A stretch of DNA of 64,000 bases, from contig CM077644.1 of the NCBI GenBank assembly GCA_039707465.1, positions 147,995,962 through 148,059,961 on the forward strand, in the 5' to 3' direction. The notes under the pieces were generated by a model that saw only the letters and a list, made by a program, of their open reading frames with translations, was not told the DNA's origin and ran no database searches. Numbering within the stretch: the stretch's first letter is position 1; each line of letters opens with the position of its first letter. Shown here in pieces: positions 7,825-51,213 of this stretch. Made by a program: the position numbers and the translations under genes. Origin of the DNA: Rhabdophis nuchalis. Taxonomy: Eukaryota; Chordata; Lepidosauria; Squamata; Natricidae.

Positions 7825-8268
7825 CAGGGGTGAAATCCAGCACGTTCTGACAGGTCTGGAGAACCGGTAGCGGAAATTTTGAATAGTTTGGAGAACCGGT
7901 AGTGGAAATTTTGAATAGTTTGGAGAACCGGTAGCGGAAATTTTGAATAGTTTGGAGAACCGGTAGCGGAAATTTTGAATAGTTTGAAGAACCGGTAGCG
8001 GAAATTTTGAATAGTTTGGAGAACCGGTAGCGGAAATTTTGAATAGTTTGGAGAACCGGTAGCAGAAATTTTGAATAGTTTGGAGAACCGGTAGTGGAAA
8101 TTTTGAGTAGTTCAGAGAACCGGCAAATGCCACCTCTGGCTGGCCCCAGAGTCGGGTGGGAATGGAGATTTTGCAGTATCCTTCCCCTGCCATGCTCACC
8201 AAGCCATACCACGCCCACCAAGCCACACCCACAGAACTGGTATTAAAAAAAATTGCATTTCATCACTG
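7825..8268 (-). mobile_element. Nested hAT MITE with tandem expansion
   Basis: Ends caggggtgaaatcc and ttcatcactg, with an exact 8-bp duplication ctcttacc at 7817-7824 and 8269-8276. It has the reverse orientation of the related element at 62569-62830. Related copies are about 255-265 bp; this one is 444 bp because a 32-bp segment is present about eight times. Confidence 0.9.
7861..8116. repeat. 32-bp tandem array, eight units
   Basis: Units start at 7861, 7893, 7925, 7957, 7989, 8021, 8053 and 8085, each gaaccggtagcgg followed by aaattttgaatagtttgga, with few substitutions. A partial ninth unit starts at 8117. Because 32 is not a multiple of 3, three units cycle all frames; minus-strand frames of 133 and 157 codons through the array are by-products without coding evidence. 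Confidence 0.95.
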
Positions 8269-12775: not shown

Positions 12776-14983
12776 CTATTCAAGGCCGGCCAGTCGAAAG
12801 AGATAGGTCTTTAATTTTACACGGAAGGAGCGGAGGTCAGTGGTCGTTCTAATATCAGGGGGAAGGTCGTTCCAGAGGGCCGGGCCCGCCACAGAGAGCG
12901 CCCTTCCCCTGGGCGTCGCCCGCTGACAAAGTCTAGTGGACGGCACCCGGAGAAGCCCCTCTCTGTGGGAGCGAATCGGTCGTGAGGATGTATGGGGCAG
13001 GATCCGATCTCGCAGATAGCTAGGTCCCGAGCCATGGAGCGCTTTGAAGATGATAATTAACACCTTGAAGCGCACCCGGAAGACGACAGGTAGCCAGTGC
13101 AGCTCGCGCAAGAGCGGTGTAACGTGGGCAAACCTGGTGGTCCCCATAATTGCTCGCGCAGCTGCATTCTGAACTAACTGAAGCCTCCGGGTGCACCTCA
13201 AGGGGAGCCCCATGTAGAGAGAGTTACAATAGTCCAGTTGGGATGTCACGAGGGCATGAGTGACTGTGCGAAGGGCGTCCCGATCCAATAGGGGGCGCAA
13301 TTGGCGAACCAGGCGAACCTGGTAAAACGCCCTCCTGGCCACGGCTGTCACTTGCTCTTCCATAGACAGCCGGGTATCCAGGAGGACACCCAAATTGCGC
13401 GCCCCATCCACAGGGGTAAGATGTTCGCCCCCTATGGCCAGCGTTGGAGAAAGCTGGTTGAATCGGGCAGCCGGAAACCACAGCCACTCGGTCTTGGTCG
13501 GGTTGAGCCTAAGTCCGTTACTTCCCATCCAGATCCGCACGGCTTCCAGGCACTGGCACATCACCGCTACGGCATCGTTGGGGTGGTTTGGGGTAGATAT
13601 GTACAGCTGGGTGTCATCAGCGTACAGGTGGTACTCTACCCCAAAACCACGGATGATCTCACCCAGCGGCTTCATGTATGCATTAAACAGGAGAGGCGAG
13701 AGGACCGACCCCTGAGGCACCCCGCATGTGAGGGGTCTCGGGGTCGACCTCTGCTCTCCTGCCCGCACAAATTGCGATCGGCCAGAGAGGTAGGAGGAGA
13801 ACCACCGTAAAACGGTGCCTCCCACCCCCAACCCCCCCAGCCGATGCAATAGGATACCATGGTCGATGGTATCGAAAGCCGCCGAGAGGTCTAATAGGAC
13901 CAGGATGGAGGAACATCCCCCATCTCTGGCCCTCCAGAGATCATCTACCAACGTGACCAATGCCGTCTCGGTGCTATGCCCGGGCCGAAAGCCGGACTGG
14001 CGTGGATCTAGATAGTCAACTTCCTCCAGGTGACGGGGAAACTGTTGTGCCACCACACTCTCAACAACCTTCGCCAAAAAGGGAAGGTTGGAGACTGGAC
14101 GGTAGTTGTTCAAAAGAGCTGGGTCCAAAGAGGGCTTCTTGAGGAGGGGCCTCACCATAGCCTCTTTTAGGGAGGCAGGCAAGGAACCCTCACTCAAGGA
14201 TGCGTTGATAACCTCTTGGAGCCAGCCTCGTGTCACCTCCCAGGATGCCAGTACAAGCCAGGAGGGGCACGGGTCCAATGAACATGTGGTGGCTCGCAGT
14301 CGCCCACGTAGCCTGTCCATATCCTCGGAAGTAACGGGGTCAAACTCCTCCCAAACAAGATCTCTCTCATGGCATCCCACTGGGCCATGAATGGGGGCTA
14401 GCTCACTCTGTATCTGGGCGGTTTTCTCCTGCAGAAAAATCACAAATTCCTCTGCTCTACCCTGTAGCGGGGCTTCCCGCTTCCTCTGTTGAAGGAGGGA
14501 ACGGGTCACCCTAAACAGGGCGGCAGGGCGGTTTTCTGCGGATGCTATGAGGGTGGCACAATGATGACGTTTGGCCACCCTCAGCGCCACAATGTAAGTC
14601 CGTAAATGGGCTCTTACCTGTGTCCGGTCAGATTCAGAGCGGCTAGCCCTCCATCTTCTCTCTAGGCATCTCTTGCGGCGTTTCATCACCCGCAGCCCCT
14701 CAGTAAACCAAGGAGCCAGGGTGGTTCGCCGCCGCGAGAGAGGCCGCAAGGGCGCGACCCGATCTAAGGCTCCCACGGCCGCACTATTCCATGCGGCCGT
14801 GAGGTCCTCCACCGGGGCGCGGGTCAGGGATACAGGAAATGGCCCAAGCGCTGTCTGGAACCCATCCGGGTCCATCAAGCGCCTGGGGCGGTACCAGATT
14901 GGTAACTCTGGTTCCGCCTCCCCGCGGAGGGGAGCAGCGGTCGGAAAGTCGAGTCGGAGAAGTGAGTGGTCTGACCATGACAA
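12776..14983 (-). CDS. L2/CR1-group LINE ORF2, reverse transcriptase part
   Basis: 735-codon frame for a non-LTR retrotransposon reverse transcriptase, which copies the element RNA at a nicked target. The N-terminus holds SWSDHSLL (residues 2-9), the conserved SDH end of an APE-type endonuclease. RT motifs follow: NYRPVSNLPF (293-302), LDLSAAFD (364-371, first catalytic Asp), GVPQGSVLSP (421-430) and YADD (454-457, catalytic Asp pair). The C-terminal tail ends in RLAGLE. The nominal start is a TTG; coding continues upstream (DLGTGDIVITPL) to a TGA near 15034, so this is not a true start. The rest of the endonuclease is not recognisable. RT activity is possible on motifs, autonomous mobility unlikely. 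Confidence 0.9.
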   Translation of the reverse strand: MSWSDHSLLRLDFPTAAPLRGEAEPELPIWYRPRRLMDPDGFQTALGPFPVSLTRAPVEDLTAAWNSAAVGALDRVAPLRPLSRRRTTLAPWFTEGLRVMKRRKRCLERRWRASRSESDRTQVRAHLRTYIVALRVAKRHHCATLIASAENRPAALFRVTRSLLQQRKREAPLQGRAEEFVIFLQEKTAQIQSELAPIHGPVGCHERDLVWEEFDPVTSEDMDRLRGRLRATTCSLDPCPSWLVLASWEVTRGWLQEVINASLSEGSLPASLKEAMVRPLLKKPSLDPALLNNYRPVSNLPFLAKVVESVVAQQFPRHLEEVDYLDPRQSGFRPGHSTETALVTLVDDLWRARDGGCSSILVLLDLSAAFDTIDHGILLHRLGGLGVGGTVLRWFSSYLSGRSQFVRAGEQRSTPRPLTCGVPQGSVLSPLLFNAYMKPLGEIIRGFGVEYHLYADDTQLYISTPNHPNDAVAVMCQCLEAVRIWMGSNGLRLNPTKTEWLWFPAARFNQLSPTLAIGGEHLTPVDGARNLGVLLDTRLSMEEQVTAVARRAFYQVRLVRQLRPLLDRDALRTVTHALVTSQLDYCNSLYMGLPLRCTRRLQLVQNAAARAIMGTTRFAHVTPLLRELHWLPVVFRVRFKVLIIIFKALHGSGPSYLRDRILPHTSSRPIRSHREGLLRVPSTRLCQRATPRGRALSVAGPALWNDLPPDIRTTTDLRSFRVKLKTYLFRLAGLE

Positions 14984-15014
14984 GGGTGTGATGACTATAT
15001 CCCCTGTACCCAGA

Positions 15015-15521
15015 TCACTCTTCCATTGGCCCGAGACAAAACATCAGCCGCAGACCCTGGCTCTGTATTCCCTGGCCACCTAGCCTGCGGGGGTTGTGGC
15101 ACCCGACCGTTTGTAACCAACGGCTGCGTGCCACCAACCGGGAGGATGAAAATTGTCTCCCCTCGGTCCTGCCCCTCCCCACGACCCTCTGAATTGGTAT
15201 GCCCTCCTGAGGAACGACTCGGGTATCCCCCTTCCTTTCGCCTTCCGCTTCCCGCCGTCGACTGCTATCCTGGCCCTTACTACTGATCACTGTTTCAATC
15301 TCCATCTGTCTATATCTTTTTTTAAACCCCTCCCCCACCCCAGAACCCCTTAAAAGCCTAATTAAAAATTTATTTAAAAACCCCCTGAGCTTGCGTTTTT
15401 TCCACCTCTCTGGATTAATTAACCCATCCTTGAGGTGGGCCCGAGATAAACTAAGGGGCCAAACCTGCGAGAGGGGGGACTCTCGTAGATCGAGGAGGTC
15501 GGACCTTGAATAAAAAACCAT
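15015..15521 (-). pseudogene. Upstream region of the L2-type LINE, endonuclease missing
   Basis: A 168-codon frame rich in Arg, Lys and Gly that overlaps the end of the endonuclease region in another frame. In related LINEs about 200 codons of APE endonuclease precede the SDH motif; here I cannot find its other hallmark residues in any frame. Either the endonuclease was deleted in this copy or this stretch is 5' UTR/ORF1-like sequence. Not supported as a separate protein. Confidence 0.35.
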
Positions 15522-19569: not shown

Positions 19570-20146
19570 GGACGATAGATCTTGAAAACTTGAAAACTTA
19601 GAATATTGTGCAAAGGTTCATTTATTTCAGTAATACAACGTAAAAGGTGAAACCAATAAATGAGATAAGACTCATTACATGCAAAGCAAGATAGTTCAAG
19701 CCGTGATTTGTCATAATGGCGTGCAGCTCATGAAAACCCCAAATCCACAATCTCAGAAAATTATGCAATCAATAAAACAAGGATTGTACAGAGAACAATA
19801 TCAGACCTCTGAAAAGTATAAGCATGCATATGTACTCAGTGGAATATGGAGGAAGAATGGAGAGGCACACACTGCAAGATGCTTCAAGTCCAGTGTGAAG
19901 TTTCCACAGTCTCTGTTGATTTGGGGAGCCATGTCATCTGCTGGTGTTGGTCCACTGTGCTTCATTAAGCCCAGGGTCAATGCAGCTGTCTACCAGGAGA
20001 CTTTGGAGCACTTCATGCTTCCTTCTGCAGACGAGCTTTATGGGGATGCTGACTTCATTTTCCAGCAGGACTTGGCACCTGCCCACACTGCCAAAAACAC
20101 CAAAACCTGGTTCAAAGATAATTTTGTAAGCCGAAGAATTTAGTAT
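19570..20146 (+). pseudogene. Tc1-like transposase remnant
   Basis: A 154-codon frame (19679-20143) whose second half is the catalytic core of a Tc1/mariner transposase: LLIWGAMSSAGVGPL, then DADFIFQQDLAPAHTAK, which contains the second acidic residue of the DDE/D triad. The third acidic residue and the C-terminus are missing, and the first half (before about 19850) does not read as transposase, so the copy is internally deleted and dead. The region before it (cttatttcagtaat-like, actcattacatgcaaagc) looks like the element's subterminal DNA. Confidence 0.75.
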
Positions 20147-35835: not shown

Positions 35836-36671
35836 AATGTTGCAGAGCCTCTGCAGTTTGTTGTTTGTAAGGGTGAACAACCGCCATGGTGCTGCAAGAT
35901 TCATAGATTTGGGACTTGTTCGTAAATGCTAGGGGGTGCTTATCACATAACTTTGAATGTTCACTAAGGAATACCTATTTGAACCATGTCAGCCTAAGCA
36001 CCATAAAATATACACAATCTCCATGAATTTCCTTCAGATTGGTTGCTGTGCAAAGAACTGGGAATATCATAACCTCATCGCAATCTAATCAATTCTCCCC
36101 CAACCCATGAGGTGGGAATTGTATACGTTTATTGAAGCCTGTTAAGTATGGGCTACCTCTGGAAAATCTATCCCTGGTTTCCATTTTCTTCACTCCTTCG
36201 TCTTGTAATTTTTTATGCGAATTTATAGTTTACTAACCTCAAATCCAGCCTTCCCAAATGCTTGCTTTTTCCTGTGTTGTTAAGAGCAGATTCTCCACCA
36301 AGGCAGCTCTTTCATTTAAGATCCCCATTAATAATTTGCCTGTTCATGTTCTCTAGCTAAAATGTGGGAGGATACATGTCCCAGTTCATACATATTAGAT
36401 CCCGATTATATTGCATTCATAAAAGCACAGATACCAATCCTGCTATCAAGAAAAATGAGACACAACTGTCGGTCGCAAAGTATTGGTGCAATGAGCGATA
36501 AATGCCCTGGATATGGCTTAGAGTTCTTCAAATGCAGGGGGTGAAATCCTCCCAGTTCGGGCCAGTTCAACCCAACCGTTAGGGACGATTGTTCTTGGTT
36601 CTGCGAACCGGTAGTGAAAAACAAAGCTTCCAACAATTGCATGGCTCAGCTGTGAACTGTGCAATTGTCTG

Positions 36672-38478
36672 AAGCTTCTACACTCCGAGACTAGTCTTGA
36701 GGTTCCATCTTGGGAGGAGTTTGACTTTGTCACCACCGAGGATATGGACAGGTTGTCAAGGAAACTTAGGGCGACCACATGTTTATTGGACCCGTGTCCG
36801 TCCTGGCTTGTACTGGCATCCTGGGAGACGACACGAGGCTGGCTCCAGGGCATTGTCAACGCATCTCTGAGTGAGGGGTCCTTACCTGCCATCTTGAAAG
36901 AGGCGGTAGTGAGGCCCCTCCTCAAGAAGCCGTCCCTGGACCCAGCTTTACTAGAGAACTATCGTCCGGTCTCCAACCTTCACTTTCTGGTGAAGGTTGT
37001 TGAGAGTGTGGTAGTCCAACAGTTTCCGCGACACCTGGAGGAAGTTGGTTATCTAGACCTGCGCCAGTCCGGCTTCCAACCCGGTCACAGTACCGAGACG
37101 GCATTGGTCGCGTTGGTTGATGATCTCTGGAGGGCGCGGGATAGAGGTTATTCCTCTATCCTAGTCCTGTTAGACCTCTCGGCGGCTTTTGATACCATCG
37201 ACCATGGTATCCTATTGCGCCGACTGGGGGGGTTGGGGCTGGGAGGCACCGTTTTGCGGTGGTTCTCGTCCTACCTCTCTGGTTGGTCACAATATGTGTT
37301 GATGGGAGGGCAGAGGTCGACCTCGAGACCCCTCTTATGTGGGGTTCCTCAGGGGTCGGTCCTCTCGCCCCTCCTGTTTAACACATATATGAAGCCGCTG
37401 GGTGAGATCATCCGTGGTTTTGGGGTGGAGTACCATCTGTACGCTGACGACACCCAGCTGTACATATCCACCCCAGACCACCCCAACGATGCCGCCGAAG
37501 TGCTGTCCCGGTGTTTGGAAGCCGTACGGATCTGGATGGGTGGTAACAAACTCAAGCTCAACCCTGCCAAGACTGAGTGGCTGTGGTTTCCGGCACCCCG
37601 GTTCAGCCAGATTACTCCAACTCTGGCCATTGGGGGCGAAACACTGGCCCCCGTGGAGAGGGCGCACAATTTGGGTGTCCTCCTGGATTCTCGGCTGTCC
37701 TTGGAGGACCATATGACGGCCGTGGCCAGGGGGGCGTTTCATCAGGTACGCCTGATGCGCCAATTGCGCCCCTTACTGGACCGGGCTGCCCTTCGCACAG
37801 TCACTCAAGCTCTCGTGATGTCCCGTCTCAACTACTGTAATGCTCTCCACATGGGGCTTCCCTTGAGGTGCACTAGAAAGCTACAGCTAGTCCAAAATGC
37901 AGCCGCGCGGGTAATTACGGGAGCCACCAGAAGCTCCCATATAACACCAATCCTGCGCGAACTGCATTGGCTTCCTGTGGTCTTTCGGGTGCGCTTCAAG
38001 GTTCTGATGACCATCTTTAAAGCGCTCCATGGCTCGGGGTCTAGTTATATGCGAGACCGTCTCTTGCCCCATACATCCCTTCGGCCGATCTGCTCCCACA
38101 GAGAGGGCCTTCTCAGGGTGCCGTCGGCTGGACAATGCCGACTGGCGACACCCAGGGGAAGAGCCTTCTCTGTGGTGGGCCCTGCCCTTTGGAACGACCT
38201 ACCCCCTGAACTCCGGACCATCACCGACCTCCGCCTCTTCCGCCAATGTCTAAAGACATACTTTTTTTATCAAGCCGGCCTAGCCTAACCTCCCATGGGG
38301 ACTTTTAGAAAAGTTTTAAATTGGTTTTTTAATAATTGGTTTTAGCATAGGACTGGGATTATTTAATATGTATTTTAAATTATTTATCTATTTTCTATTT
38401 TGTATATTTTTAAATGCCCTGTGCGCCGCCCTGGGTCCTCTGCGGAGAAGGGCGGGATATAAATGTAATAAAATGAAA
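36672..38478 (+). mobile_element. L2/CR1-group LINE, 5'-truncated
   Basis: 1.8-kb copy closely related to 12573-16596: RT domain to 3' terminus, ending gccgccctgggtcctctgc, gggcgggatataaatg and a short A-rich tail. The left boundary is where similarity to the longer copy starts, just before the WEEFD segment. Inserted into a hAT element. Confidence 0.88.
36744..38288 (+). CDS. L2/CR1-group LINE reverse transcriptase, truncated
   Basis: 514 codons, intact to the natural stop (...YQAGLA). Motifs: NYRPVSNLHF (residues 72-81), LDLSAAFD (143-150), CGVPQGSVLSP (199-209) and YADD (233-236). The aligned residues of the 735-codon frame at 12776-14983 are strongly similar, so both are young. The ATG is internal to the original ORF2: in-frame coding (SWEEFDFVTTED) precedes it. 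The endonuclease and N-terminal half are absent, so it is not autonomous. Confidence 0.9.
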   Translation: MDRLSRKLRATTCLLDPCPSWLVLASWETTRGWLQGIVNASLSEGSLPAILKEAVVRPLLKKPSLDPALLENYRPVSNLHFLVKVVESVVVQQFPRHLEEVGYLDLRQSGFQPGHSTETALVALVDDLWRARDRGYSSILVLLDLSAAFDTIDHGILLRRLGGLGLGGTVLRWFSSYLSGWSQYVLMGGQRSTSRPLLCGVPQGSVLSPLLFNTYMKPLGEIIRGFGVEYHLYADDTQLYISTPDHPNDAAEVLSRCLEAVRIWMGGNKLKLNPAKTEWLWFPAPRFSQITPTLAIGGETLAPVERAHNLGVLLDSRLSLEDHMTAVARGAFHQVRLMRQLRPLLDRAALRTVTQALVMSRLNYCNALHMGLPLRCTRKLQLVQNAAARVITGATRSSHITPILRELHWLPVVFRVRFKVLMTIFKALHGSGSSYMRDRLLPHTSLRPICSHREGLLRVPSAGQCRLATPRGRAFSVVGPALWNDLPPELRTITDLRLFRQCLKTYFFYQAGLA

Positions 38479-47809: not shown

Positions 47810-48410
47810 ATCATACCTAAGAAAACTATAAAAAATAAAACAAAAACACACATTTTTCACATTCTACACCAAAAGTAAGAGGCTAAGGAAAAATAATAAT
47901 AATAAACAAAAATCTGCCAGTTTCTGCCAGATTTTGAACCTGCAGCCTTCTATTTGCAAACTCAAATGTTTTACTACCAAAGCATTCCTGGTAAAGTTAA
48001 CTGTAAAAGATATTGCAGAAGAAAGTAAATCCTGACTCGTTAAAGGAACATTCTTGCCTCTGGAAAATAGCCAGCAAACTCCTGGGGTTAGCTCACAACT
48101 TTATTCAGAACACATCAGAGTGCTCAAGGTGACATAATATGGAAAAGCATACCCTGGAAATAGAGCAGAAAAATACATCTTGATATTGCTTTGACAGTAA
48201 GTGGGGAATTAATTGGGGGCTCTGCCCTCCATCACAGCCATTGAGAAATGGTTGCCTGCTCATTCTGGCTTTGTAGTTACTGGGTTTATTTTTTTTATTT
48301 TATTTAATAACAAATGTGTTTACATTTTTTAATATATTTATTGTTTTAATTAATTGTTGCATGTCACTTAGAGTCACATTTTTAGATGGGCAGCCATATG
48401 AATTATATAT
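47810..48410. other. No recognised feature
   Basis: AT-rich DNA upstream of the ribozyme locus; no gene or repeat identified. Confidence 0.35.
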
Positions 48411-48414
48411 ATTT

Positions 48415-48505
48415 TCACAGCTCCTGTTATGAGGCCCTTTAAGGGAGGAGACAAGCTGTCTTCCTTCTCTGCCTTTCAGAGATCATCAGCCCTTAAAAAT
48501 CTAAT
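48415..48505. repeat. Degraded partial copies of the ribozyme unit
   Basis: The first part (tcacagctcctgttatgagg, ccctttaagggaggagac) is an inverted match to the middle of the 337-bp unit. The last part (cagcccttaaaaatctaa) is a direct match to its start. It therefore repeats in miniature the inverted-then-direct layout that follows. Confidence 0.65.
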
Positions 48506-48532
48506 ACACACACACACACACACACACACACA
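48506..48532. repeat. (CA)n microsatellite
   Basis: About 13 CA units between partial unit copies. Confidence 0.95.
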
Positions 48533-48533
48533 T

Positions 48534-48736
48534 ATGAGAGAATATTATCACAGCTCCTGTTCAGGGTCCCTTTAAGGGGAGGAGACTTAACGTCATCCCT
48601 CTCTGCCCTTCAACTCAACCTAGAGATCATCCAGACAGAGAACCAATTAGATTACTGCTGTGTGACATTTTTTAGATTTGTGTTAGATTTTTAAGGGCTG
48701 AAAATAAAGAGACCAGGATCCATTTCAGGATGGATA
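48534..48736 (-). repeat. Inverted partial copy of the 337-bp ribozyme unit
   Basis: Complement of 48741-48903, including ccctttaaggggaggagac, agagaaccaattagattac and gatttttaagggctg, plus the 3' half of the ribozyme: on the minus strand CCTGAAATGGATC runs directly into CTGGTCTC. It lacks the tRNA-like part. With the direct copy it forms a palindrome with arms of about 165 bp. Confidence 0.85.
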
Positions 48737-49061
48737 TTTTCAGCCCTTAAAAATCTAACACATATCTAAAAAATGTCACACAGCAGTAATCTAATTGGTT
48801 CTCTGTCTGGATGATCTCTAGGTTGAGTCGAAGGGCAGAGAGGGATGACGTTAAGTCTCCTCCCCTTAAAGGGACCCTGAACAGGAGCTATGATAATATT
48901 CTCTCATTTAAGAGTCCTGTAAATTGGCTGATGTATCAGGGATACCGGATAGCTCAAGGCATAGAGAAGCCTGCCTCATATGCTGGAAAGCACCAGTTCA
49001 AATCACAGTAGAAGGAGTATGGCCAGCTGAAGAAGGCTAATAAGCCTGAAATGGATCCATC
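48737..49061 (+). mobile_element. Ribozyme-bearing unit 1 (337-bp period)
   Basis: First direct copy of a unit repeated at exactly 337-bp offset: 48741 aligns with 49078, 48811 with 49148, 49021 with 49358. Differences from unit 2 are few single substitutions (for example ctcctcccc against tttctcccc, gagctatg against gagctgtg, aatcac against aatccc), so about 98 per cent identical. Order: leader, gggaccctgaacaggagc block, tRNA-like segment (48941-49010), hammerhead core (49021 on). The 66-codon frames in both units are too short and featureless to call genes. By architecture it resembles small hammerhead retroelements or a PLE terminal repeat. Confidence 0.8.
48950..49005 (+). promoter_or_regulatory. 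tRNA-like A and B boxes, unit 1
   Basis: A-box-like tagctcaaggc (48950-48960) and B-box-like agttcaaatca (48995-49005), 45 nt apart as in tRNA genes. The 5' text ccggatagctcaaggcatag resembles a tRNA-Lys 5' half. Known role of such boxes: internal RNA polymerase III promoter. Functionality is inference. Confidence 0.55.
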
Positions 49062-49067
49062 CTGGTC
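49021..49067 (+). ncRNA. Type I hammerhead ribozyme, apparently complete
   Basis: All invariant core positions are present. Stem I 5' strand GGCCAG (49021-49026); core CTGAAGA (49027-49033), fitting CUGANGA; stem II AGGCT (49034-49038), loop AATA, AGCCT (49043-49047), five perfect pairs; core GAAA (49048-49051); stem III ATGG against CCAT (49051-49054, 49057-49060) with a very short loop; T49060 and C49061 form the UH cleavage site; stem I 3' strand CTGGTC (49062-49067), six pairs with one G-U. Predicted self-cleavage is after C49061. The tight stem III resembles PLE and newt hammerheads that work best as dimers. Activity untested. Confidence 0.85.
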
Positions 49068-49286
49068 TCTTTATTTTCAGCCCTTAAAAATCTAACACAT
49101 ATCTAAAAAATGTCACACAGCAGTAATCTAATTGGTTCTCTGTCTGGATGATCTCTAGGTTGAGTCGAAGGGCAGAGAGGGATGACGTTAAGTTTTCTCC
49201 CCTTAAAGGGACCCTGAACAGGAGCTGTGATAATATTCTCTCATTTAAGAGTTCTGTAAATTGGCTGATATATCAGGGATACCGGA

Positions 49287-49342
49287 TAGCTCAAGGCATA
49301 GAGAAGCCTGCCTCATATGCTGGAAAGCACCAGTTCAAATCC
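49287..49342 (+). promoter_or_regulatory. tRNA-like A and B boxes, unit 2
   Basis: tagctcaaggc (49287-49297) and agttcaaatcc (49332-49342), the same 45-nt spacing. The B box is closer to the GGTTCGANTCC consensus than in unit 1. Confidence 0.6.
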
Positions 49343-49357
49343 CAGTAGAAGGAGTAT

Positions 49358-49397
49358 GGCCAGCTGAAGAAGGCTAATAAGCTTGAAATGGATTTTC
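49358..49397 (+). ncRNA. Hammerhead ribozyme, 3' half lost
   Basis: GGCCAG (49358-49363), CTGAAGA (49364-49370), stem II AGGCT-AATA-AGCTT with one G-U, and GAAA (49385-49388) are intact. After tggat the sequence becomes tttcgcggg, removing the 3' strand of stem III, the UH site and the stem I partner. It cannot cut here by itself. Confidence 0.8.
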
Positions 49398-49502
49398 GCG
49401 GGTGTTTGTATATAGGTCTTTGGTTGTTCGGGTTTTCTCCCACGTAGAATTGGAAGTATCTTCATGACGTTTCGATGAAGTCTCATTCATCATCTTCATG
49501 CA
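49398..49502 (+). mobile_element. PLE-like terminal-repeat fragment
   Basis: ggtctttggttgttcgggt, ttctcccacgtagaattgg, then gacgtttcgatgaagtctc and a terminal cattcatcatcttcatg. This motif set is known to me from dispersed Penelope-like terminal sequences in vertebrates. It directly abuts the broken ribozyme of unit 2, so unit 2 may be fused to a second element or be part of one composite PLE end. Confidence 0.45.
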
Positions 49503-49540
49503 TATATGTATATATGCATGCACGCATACATACATACATA

Positions 49541-49865
49541 AAGGGAAAAGTAAAAGCTCTAGGAGGTGATGCTCATCTCCATTTCAAAGCCGAAGAGTCA
49601 GTGCTGTCCAAAGACGTCTCCATGGTCATGTGACATGACTAAACGCCGAAGGAGCACAGAACGCTGTTACCTTCCCACCAAAGGTGGTTCCTATTTTTTT
49701 ACTTGCATTTTTTACATGCTTTCGAACTGCTAGGTTGGCAGAAGCTGGGACAAGTAACGGGAGTTCATTCCATTACGCGGCACTACCTTAGGGATTCGAA
49801 CCGCCGAACTGCCAAACGTTCTGATCGACAAGCTCAGTGTCTTAGCCATGGAGCCACCACATCCC
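49541..49865 (-). mobile_element. Sauria-type SINE
   Basis: Complement layout: decayed Bov-B-like tail (gggaaaagtaaaagctc), body (gccgaagagtcagtgctg, ttcccaccaaaggtgg, gctaggttggcagaagctg), then the tRNA-derived head with B-box complement gggattcgaaccgcc and A-box complement cttagccatggagcc. Nearly full length. Confidence 0.88.
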
Positions 49866-50131: not shown

Positions 50132-50631
50132 CTTCTCTTTAATTATTTTCCTGTTACATTAATCCTCCTGTTTCTTTTGTGCGTGTGTGCAGTTCTTCCA
50201 CCTTGTAAGTCCCTCCGTACAGCTTTCTCACATTTTGATAAGCATTGTGCAGCAATAAATAATTTTTAGCACCTTTTTAATGAAATACAATTTAATGTGG
50301 CTTTATTGTATTTTTCTTTCCTTCCTAAAACACAGCAAGATCCACTGGGGAATTTGTTCCAATATGATATATAATTTTATTTAGAAAATGGTCCTTTTCT
50401 CACTGCAGTTGCCAACTGAGGAAGCAAATCCTGTGAACCGAAATCTTTCTACATGTAGCAGCTGGCGATTCTAGTGAACTAGTTGCGGCTCTACAACCTG
50501 ATATACAGTCCGGAGTCTGTAAGGAATTTAGGCTGTAACATTTTTGCTTATGCAGTAGCATTTCCGTGATTAACATTCTTTTATCTGCAACTACCTAGAG
50601 TTGTTTGGAGTTGGGCAAACAGAAACTGAAC

Positions 50632-51213
50632 AATGTGGTACATGCAGCACAATGCAGTGAGCTATGTGCAGATCTATACATTGGGGAAACAAAACAGTCA
50701 CTTCATAAATACATGGCACAACTTAGGAGAACAAGTCCGTGAGGAAAAGATTCAGCAGTCCATCTGCATTTAAAAGACAAAGGCCACTCTTTTGAAGACA
50801 GCAAAGTCCACATTTTGGACAGAGGGGACCGCTGGTTTGAAAGAGGGGGTCAAAGAGACCATCTATGTCAAAATTGAACAGACCTCTCTCAACAGAGGGG
50901 GAGGGATACGACATTCTCTATCTCCAGTCTACAACACAGTCCTTTCAGCAGTTCCAAGAAGGTTCTACACCCATTTGCACCATTCAGTGACCCTGAAGAG
51001 ATAGATAAACCTCCAGGTGGCCTCAATGACTCACTAAAGGAAAGCAAATGACCAGCTATCTGCAAGGAATATAAATCCTTCCCTTCCCTGCTATCCAGTC
51101 AGAGCTGAAGAAGCTTCTTGGATGAGAAGTGAAAGTCTTCAAAGAATAATAGTCGCCTCTTGAAAAAGCACCTTTGGGGCAACCATGACCTGGATGACTA
51201 AGAATCTCCATAG
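50632..51213 (+). mobile_element. Penelope-like element 3' end with GIY-YIG remnant
   Basis: Coding pieces: DLYIGET-like around 50675 (the YIG half of a GIY-YIG endonuclease), then WFERGVKETIYVKIEQ within 50792-51004 (with the conserved Glu after the Ile-Tyr segment) and LNRGGGIRHSLSPVYN. Several stops and frameshifts: dead copy. It is followed by the 3' terminal repeat (gctgaagaagcttcttgg, atgagaagtgaaagtc, gcctcttgaaaaagcacc, cctggatgactaagaatc). PLEs pair a telomerase-related RT with this nuclease; RT is missing here. This copy links the terminal-repeat fragments elsewhere in the window to a PLE. Confidence 0.8.

Follow-up and report, generated by a model that had tools for sequence, protein, structure and literature searches.

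We describe a family of retrozymes, small tandem units with a hammerhead ribozyme, that appear to be copied around the genome of a probable amniote by a Penelope-like element (PLE). The copy from which we started lies in a 64,000-nucleotide stretch of DNA, here called the window. We consider it likely that the unit is a nonautonomous retrotransposon of the animal retrozyme kind, with the PLE-driven cycle proposed below. A hammerhead retroelement of this kind had been put forward in an earlier note made from the sequence alone, and that reading is upheld by covariation in the ribozyme and by many dispersed tandem copies. The features of the locus, in window coordinates, are as follows.

48409..48477, minus strand: older, diverged retrozyme piece, 78.6% identity (sequence comparison)
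48534..48729, minus strand: inverted partial retrozyme copy, in 5'-to-5' junction with the array (sequence comparison)
48735..49071, plus strand: retrozyme unit 1 (337 bp, family A; Tandem Repeats Finder), the query unit for the genome comparisons
48755..48767, plus strand: internal 3'-end site 1, AC-rich CTAACACATATCT, used in other copies
48800..48841, plus strand: hairpin kept across families A, B and C (between-family comparison)
48901..48907, plus strand: internal 3'-end site 2, CTCTCAT, used in other copies
48950..48959 (unit 1) and 49287-49296 (unit 2), plus strand: Pol III A-box-like sequence (motif match)
48995..49005 (unit 1) and 49332-49342 (unit 2), plus strand: Pol III B-box-like sequence (motif match)
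49015..49069, plus strand: complete type I hammerhead, predicted cut after C49061 (model R1, Rfam HH9)
49021-49026 with 49062-49067, plus strand: hammerhead stem I
49027-49033, plus strand: hammerhead core CTGAAGA
49034-49038 with 49043-49047, plus strand: hammerhead stem II, with loop AATA at 49039-49042
49048-49051, plus strand: hammerhead GAAA
49051-49054 with 49057-49060, plus strand: hammerhead stem III, within the palindrome 49051-49060
49072..49393, plus strand: retrozyme unit 2, ending within its own hammerhead at TGGAT (Tandem Repeats Finder, alignment to unit 1)
49352..49393, plus strand: truncated second hammerhead, with stem I 5' strand, core, stem II and GAAA (R1, 41.9 bits)
49394..49510, minus strand: Penelope-like tail of type F with a minimal PLE hammerhead, in 3'-to-3' junction with the array

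Tandem Repeats Finder reported a direct repeat of period 337 at window positions 48735-49393, with 2.0 copies and 97% matches; over its 322 bases, unit 2 shares 97.8% identity with unit 1. This bears out the two head-to-tail 337-bp units of about 98% identity that the earlier note had described. The same note had unit 2 begin exactly at the predicted cut; this proved to be a choice of register, as the 5' end of the array at 48735 is position 11 past the cut. The 3' end of the inverted partial copy is at site 2 and adjoins a (CA)n run at 48506-48532. The order of inverted piece (48534-48729), array (48735-49393) and minus-strand PLE tail (from 49394) is the full insertion pattern. Matches to miRNAs on the inverted repeat at 48589-48852 were below gathering scores and are accounted for by the inverted copy.

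We could read all parts of the first ribozyme in unit 1, including stem III, the cleavage site and the pairing 3' strand of stem I, as had been claimed. Model R1 gave this hammerhead 89.3 bits, although one of the rows from which R1 was built has the very sequence of the window copy. The further claim of a hammerhead core in each unit holds for the complete ribozyme of unit 1 and for the core and stem II of unit 2, both of which are present. However, unit 2 is cut off inside its ribozyme: the element ends with TGGAT (49393) within stem III, and neither the cleavage site nor the 3' strand of stem I is present. The R1 match on this hammerhead runs to 49406, past the end of the element. Because the unit 2 ribozyme has no cleavage site, the window locus alone cannot release the 337-nt RNA that had been predicted from it; with a cleavage site in only one of the two ribozymes, a whole unit is not excisable. 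Longer arrays, such as the 18 units of locus L013, could release RNA of unit length. A covariance search, which the earlier note had proposed, gave a divided answer. On 86 bases, Rfam HH9 matched 49013-49079 with 23.3 bits (E 3.4e-4), below its gathering score of 52; at gathering scores Rfam reported no hammerhead model in the whole window, and a lax Rfam scan of 48301-49800 (1.5 kb) reported none.

The loop of stem III has two bases, too few for a hairpin, and the palindrome TGGATCCA suits a dimer. In fold predictions, one ribozyme alone formed stems I and II without stem III, and an 85-nt stretch took an alternative fold. Two copies cofolded into a dimeric hammerhead with a shared stem III of ten pairs (-41.6 kcal/mol, versus -13.1 for one). 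The fold of the whole 337-nt monomer was not unusually stable (z -0.33). Axolotl retrozymes, whose stem III is similarly short, cleave much better as dimers, according to PMC7229834.

The unit belongs to a large dispersed family, as a copy-number survey, also proposed earlier, confirmed. With the best 40 of 2,002 candidates scored, there were at least 173 genome matches to the 661-base query. We then counted exact matches to a core pattern that fixes the core (except position 7), two loop II bases, GAAA and most of stem III. There were 8,813 and 8,794 of them, 17,607 in all, in 1.92 Gb, and none in the same 1.92 Gb when the pattern was read backwards. This count was used in place of a search with the 86-bp ribozyme DNA, which skipped common words and gave 12 candidates only. 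Loci with their flanks, first 20 and then 12 fresh ones, were all taken from the best family A matches and so do not sample the family at random. The longest array has 18 full units (L013), unit lengths are 337/338 bp and 345/346 bp, and the copies are dispersed over many contigs. Units within one locus differ by 1.7%, and units of other loci by 2.9%. The unit consensus has 44.1% GC, the longest stop-free stretch of the doubled unit is 61 codons, and a frame with reverse transcriptase (RT) and GIY-YIG is absent from the unit.

The family survey covered 91 motifs, two of which, long-looped, are plainly unrelated. Family A has CTGAAGA, AGGCT/AGCCT and TGGATCCA; family B has CTGATGA, GAGCT/AGCTC and TAGATCTA; family C has CTGACGA, GGGCT/AGCCC or GGACT/AGTCC, and TGGATCCA. 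The core position that varies between the families is the one that tolerates any base. Four islands are best kept across A, B and C: ACACATATCT-AAAAAA, the hairpin TCTCTGTCT...GGCAGAGA, the B-box region and the ribozyme.

On this comparative evidence, the hammerhead is kept by selection. Covariation set A1 comprised 35 of 38 distinct ribozymes, three having been dropped because the 5' strand of stem I was foreign flank; 96.8% of cells were paired in these 35 copies, versus 19-51% in slid structures, the 38 having been prefiltered for some pairing. Changes on both sides of a pair occurred in 28 cells versus 7.2 in shuffles (0 of 500 reached 28), and five pairs had such changes versus 3.0 in shuffles (8 of 500); the number of pair types in the 35 copies, 10 versus 11.9, was not above shuffles. 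The unfiltered genome list is the better test. We took the 100 first listed of the 17,607 matches; these all lie in the initial 20 Mb of a single contig, and some are array neighbors related to one another. Stem II, left free in the search pattern, was fully paired in 92 of these 100 places (79 without G-U), and the free stem III pair was Watson-Crick in every one (47 G-C, 53 A-U). Stems II and III also covary between families A, B and C, so that the compensatory changes in other genomic copies named as a check in the earlier note were found in these two stems. Within family A, the ribozyme diverges from consensus by 0.8%, versus 1.7% for the whole unit.

PLE tails were present in 20 of 33 loci (13 of 21 in the first set, 7 of 12 in the fresh set) and absent in 8 of 21 and 5 of 12. 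Of the 31 tail matches in the first 21 loci (118.7 kb), 29 were no more than 200 bp from a retrozyme piece, the other two were 200-1000 bp away, and no match lay farther off; two of the 31 are the same piece in L021. This distance test was devised after the adjacency had been noticed, and the enrichment was measured against the sequence flanking these loci and the remainder of the window. A descriptor search found 15 minimal PLE hammerheads in related tails. In L018 and L022, a type G tail runs into frames with weak similarity to GIY-YIG (E 0.006, below the Pfam cut-off). In L021, a third tail type leads into a single frame that matches RVT_1 (E 2.8e-8) and, slightly short of the Pfam cut-off, GIY-YIG (E 2.1e-4). 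A fourth frame, in L014, had no RT or GIY-YIG match in Pfam. A PDB search with a PLE frame gave no matches. The L021 tail is 69-75% similar to types F and G. We call the type F tail of the window a PLE because of its minimal hammerhead, in which C3 of the core is A, and its 69% similarity to the L021 tail; no type F tail itself was observed beside a frame.

The genome's PLE with RT and GIY-YIG looks young: among 91 scored matches (8,649 candidates), the main row was 95-100% identical to the query in 86, and by our own count 18 of the 91 had stop-free frames of at least 800 codons. PLE copies within 6 kb of each other, among the 91 scored matches, formed 15 5'-to-5' pairs, no 3'-to-3' pairs and 7 tandem pairs. 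Three further PLE loci were found by protein, with retrozyme pieces in two and none in the third; L044 and L045, PLE loci found in this way, carry pieces matching retrozymes of families A, B and C. At window positions 50599-51001 (plus strand), we noted peptides that resemble, by eye, a second, different GIY-YIG piece (YIGETKQSLHKY), for which Pfam returned no families.

The retrozyme and PLE pieces abut, and PLEs form tandem pseudo-LTRs (pLTRs) with hammerheads (PMC11167929). Both points would fit a 337-bp unit that is a PLE terminal repeat left as tandem fragments, and the earlier note had offered "PLE-derived repeat" as one reading. However, comparison of the unit with PLE pieces (short of a full pLTR) gave no significant similarity (best E 0.012), and the unit has no coding part, with its longest stop-free stretch at 61 codons. 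The PLE tails moreover have a hammerhead of their own, the minimal kind with a two-pair stem III and GAAACGTH, which is absent from the unit, where TGGATCCA or TAGATCTA stands instead. We regard a pLTR origin as very unlikely. The retrozyme unit is associated with PLEs rather than PLE-derived.

We found marks of insertion at the ends of the retrozyme pieces. Three 8-bp bins took in 29 of 46 family A 3' ends, where random placement gave 11.7 on average and at most 18 in 20,000 trials; the main pile-ups were at unit positions 25-31 and 174. These sites adjoin TA/CA runs, and flanks with period-2/4 repeats were seen at 18 of 46 3' ends versus 5 of 46 5' ends (background 3.3%). In the fresh 12 loci, with windows preset, 16 of 29 ends lay within positions 24-31 or 172-176, where 1.1 were expected. 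The 5' ends fell in three bins in 20 of 46 cases, partly through a query-boundary effect. The cleavage site was not favored as a 5' end (2 of 48 within 2 nt), which is too few to claim linear cleaved templates. By strict counts, 5'-to-5' retrozyme junctions occur in 22 of 33 loci (13 of 21 first, 9 of 12 fresh); a looser set had some heavily overlapping opposite-strand pieces. The first set had 20 5'-to-5' junctions, 6 3'-to-3' and 4 in the same direction, and the fresh set 10, 2 and 6, respectively.

Internal 3'-end sites, an AT-rich target and priming from both strands are the genomic signature that Penelope-like mobilization would leave, and all three can be read from these loci. In work on the anole PLE protein (PMC11167929), reverse transcription began at an internal, AC-rich site, the DNA that was cut was AT-rich, and both strands were extended; this behavior predicts the retrozyme insertion geometry in the present genome. 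Insertion of the anole PLE still took place when its hammerhead was mutated (PMC11167929), so the part of the ribozyme may lie in processing the RNA and not in inserting it. Retrozymes and PLEs insert together, with the same geometry and into the same type of target, and this is genomic evidence for PLEs mobilizing retrozymes. In PMC7229834, PLEs are "a strong candidate" for animal retrozyme mobilization, without demonstration. A shared preference for microsatellites could also place retrozyme and PLE together without one enzyme.

Two other modes of spread bear on the same marks. Growth as a satellite by unequal exchange, without an RNA stage, would produce head-to-tail arrays (here of up to 18 units) and some homogenization. 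It is scarcely credible for a family dispersed on many contigs, often as short arrays in differing surroundings, with gathered 3' ends and inverted pairs. We also considered a SINE moved by a LINE (CR1, L2 or BovB), in which twin priming would produce the inversions and the hammerhead would be incidental. Twin priming yields the same junction geometry, A/B-like boxes are present, and frames that look LINE-like by eye occur in the loci. However, the 3' ends of both arms lie at the same internal sites beside microsatellites, whereas random internal priming predicts otherwise; the hammerhead covaries and is better kept than the whole unit (0.8% versus 1.7% divergence); and PLE tails are the close neighbors that were counted. 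We therefore think LINE-driven spread improbable.

The unit carries A- and B-like boxes upstream of the ribozyme on the same strand. In the family consensus, the two boxes match with no mismatches, 45 nt apart, and 0 of 300 shuffles were as good. The boxes of window unit 1 have two mismatches (1 of 300 shuffles) and those of unit 2 have one (0 of 300), all of them in the B box; a C copy and the two tested B copies each have one (0 of 300 each). The spacing is 45 nt in families A and C and 66 nt in B. In family A, the A box diverges by 0.6% and the B box by 2.2%. The A-to-B-box segment is the most divergent region measured in that family, at 3.8% from consensus versus 1.7% for the unit, and this counts against a promoter kept by selection in family A. 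Family A also has TTTT about 12 nt past the cut, which could end Pol III transcripts early. ARAGORN, in its bacterial setting, found no tRNA genes in 20 loci, and lax Rfam scans gave no tRNA family. Because no tRNA was found, we term the boxes Pol III-like, not tRNA-derived. A tRNA origin of the unit head is likewise unsupported, as no tRNA model matched. With respect to tRNA-derived SINEs, the unit has A and B boxes at tRNA-like spacing, as a sequence match only, and lacks tRNA homology.

We propose the following cycle for the retrozyme. Each unit would first be transcribed; that Pol III does this from the A/B-like boxes of the unit has, in our view, about even odds. Where hammerheads adjoin in the multimeric RNA, their palindromic stems III would pair to form a dimeric ribozyme, a structure that is supported, and this would cut after the C of CCAUC. 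A host ligase would then circularize the unit-length RNA, as we infer from published animal retrozymes. The genome's PLE, as the presumed enzyme with RT and GIY-YIG endonuclease, would open TA/CA-rich sites and prime cDNA synthesis with both DNA strands, beginning at AC-rich sites within the unit. Copying round a circle or along a multimer would account for the marks seen in these loci: tandem arrays, 3' ends at fixed sites with variable 5' ends, and inverted pairs joined 5'-to-5'.

Hammerhead_HH9 (RF02275), which we take to be an amniote hammerhead family, is the best-matching hammerhead model for copies of A, B and C, and the common sequence is CAGCTGA-GA ... GAAA ... TCCTG. In a search that scored 58 of 145,076 candidates, one HH9 locus was found above the cut-off, at G000 C1:378970325-378970406 (L041, 88.7 bits); no HH9 locus above the cut-off was found in 14 control genomes. 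The presence of L041 speaks for an amniote host. The second match of this search (L042, 36.8 bits) sits in a retrozyme copy. Retrozyme copies score 23-37 bits to HH9, all under the cut-off of 52, with the window copy at 23.3 and others up to 36.8. In the other direction, R1 matches the HH9 locus weakly (24.2 bits, E 7e-6 in 6.2 kb). No retrozyme unit was found in 3 kb of sequence around L041. Because the likeness is partly that of the universal core, a descent link between HH9 and the retrozymes is only a lead. Amniote intronic hammerheads are thought to be domesticated from retroelements (PMC6155905).

A wider reading would join these points. Retrozymes would persist in amniotes as large families that live as satellites of PLEs. 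They would be transcribed from Pol III promoters, cut themselves as hammerhead dimers and form circles, which the PLE enzyme would copy repeatedly after opening a microsatellite, with both of its strands as starting points; the conserved HH9 would stem from this lineage as well. We hold this tentatively, as rather unlikely in its entirety, and the divergence of the A-to-B segment lowers its weight. If it were true, parasite and domesticated descendant would still be present in one genome.

The present family shares much with the animal non-LTR retrozymes described in PMC7229834, above all the 330- and 350-bp repeats of axolotl and newt. Both have a type I hammerhead whose very short stem III lies around a palindrome, so that a dimer is the expected active form. 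In both, units of about 330-350 bp stand in tandem, from two to many in a row; both are noncoding with GC below 50%, and both occur beside PLEs with minimal hammerheads. By the marks that define animal retrozymes, the family consists of dispersed tandem repeats in the range of about 150-450 bp, from dimers to multimers, and the unit has a type I hammerhead, GC below 50% and no coding capacity. It differs from the known animal retrozymes in occurring in a probable amniote, in being joined physically to PLE tails and in having Pol III-like boxes. Plant and animal retrozymes seem to lack promoters according to a review (PMC7761336), and a later plant paper reports a retrozyme promoter in an LTR. 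The schistosome SINE-like repeats Sm-alpha and Sj-alpha, likened here by description, are also small repeats with a hammerhead; Sm-alpha is reported as derived from tRNA-Gln in PMC2770079, whereas the present unit has A/B-like boxes without a tRNA model match. The Poseidon PLE of the green anole (PMC11167929) has the same internal AC-rich RT start, AT-rich targets, both-strand priming, tandem arrays and a hammerhead. Unlike Poseidon, the present unit has no RT/endonuclease frame and has a different hammerhead, and no similarity of the unit to PLE pieces of its own genome was found.

Retrozyme-type families were known from amphibians and invertebrates. Mammalian hammerheads are described as isolated motifs (PMC7229834), and those of amniotes as intronic motifs that have been domesticated (PMC6155905). 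This picture would change with a tandem family of 17,607 core matches in a probable amniote. Circular RNA made by ribozymes would then have a vertebrate source, and HH9 a candidate relative. We found no report of an amniote retrozyme family in the open-licence literature; supplements and the key papers of 2010, 2014 and 2017 might mention reptile copies. Purified anole PLE protein already exists (PMC11167929).

We observed other repeats in the window. Two open frames resemble, by eye, CR1/L2-type LINE reverse transcriptases, one of 755 codons at 12779-15043 (minus strand) and one of 556 codons at 36618-38285 (plus strand). An open frame at 19664-20140 (plus strand) is, by eye, like a piece of a mariner-type transposase. 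Tandem Repeats Finder also reported a 32-bp minisatellite at 7857-8123, with 8.3 copies and 95% matches.
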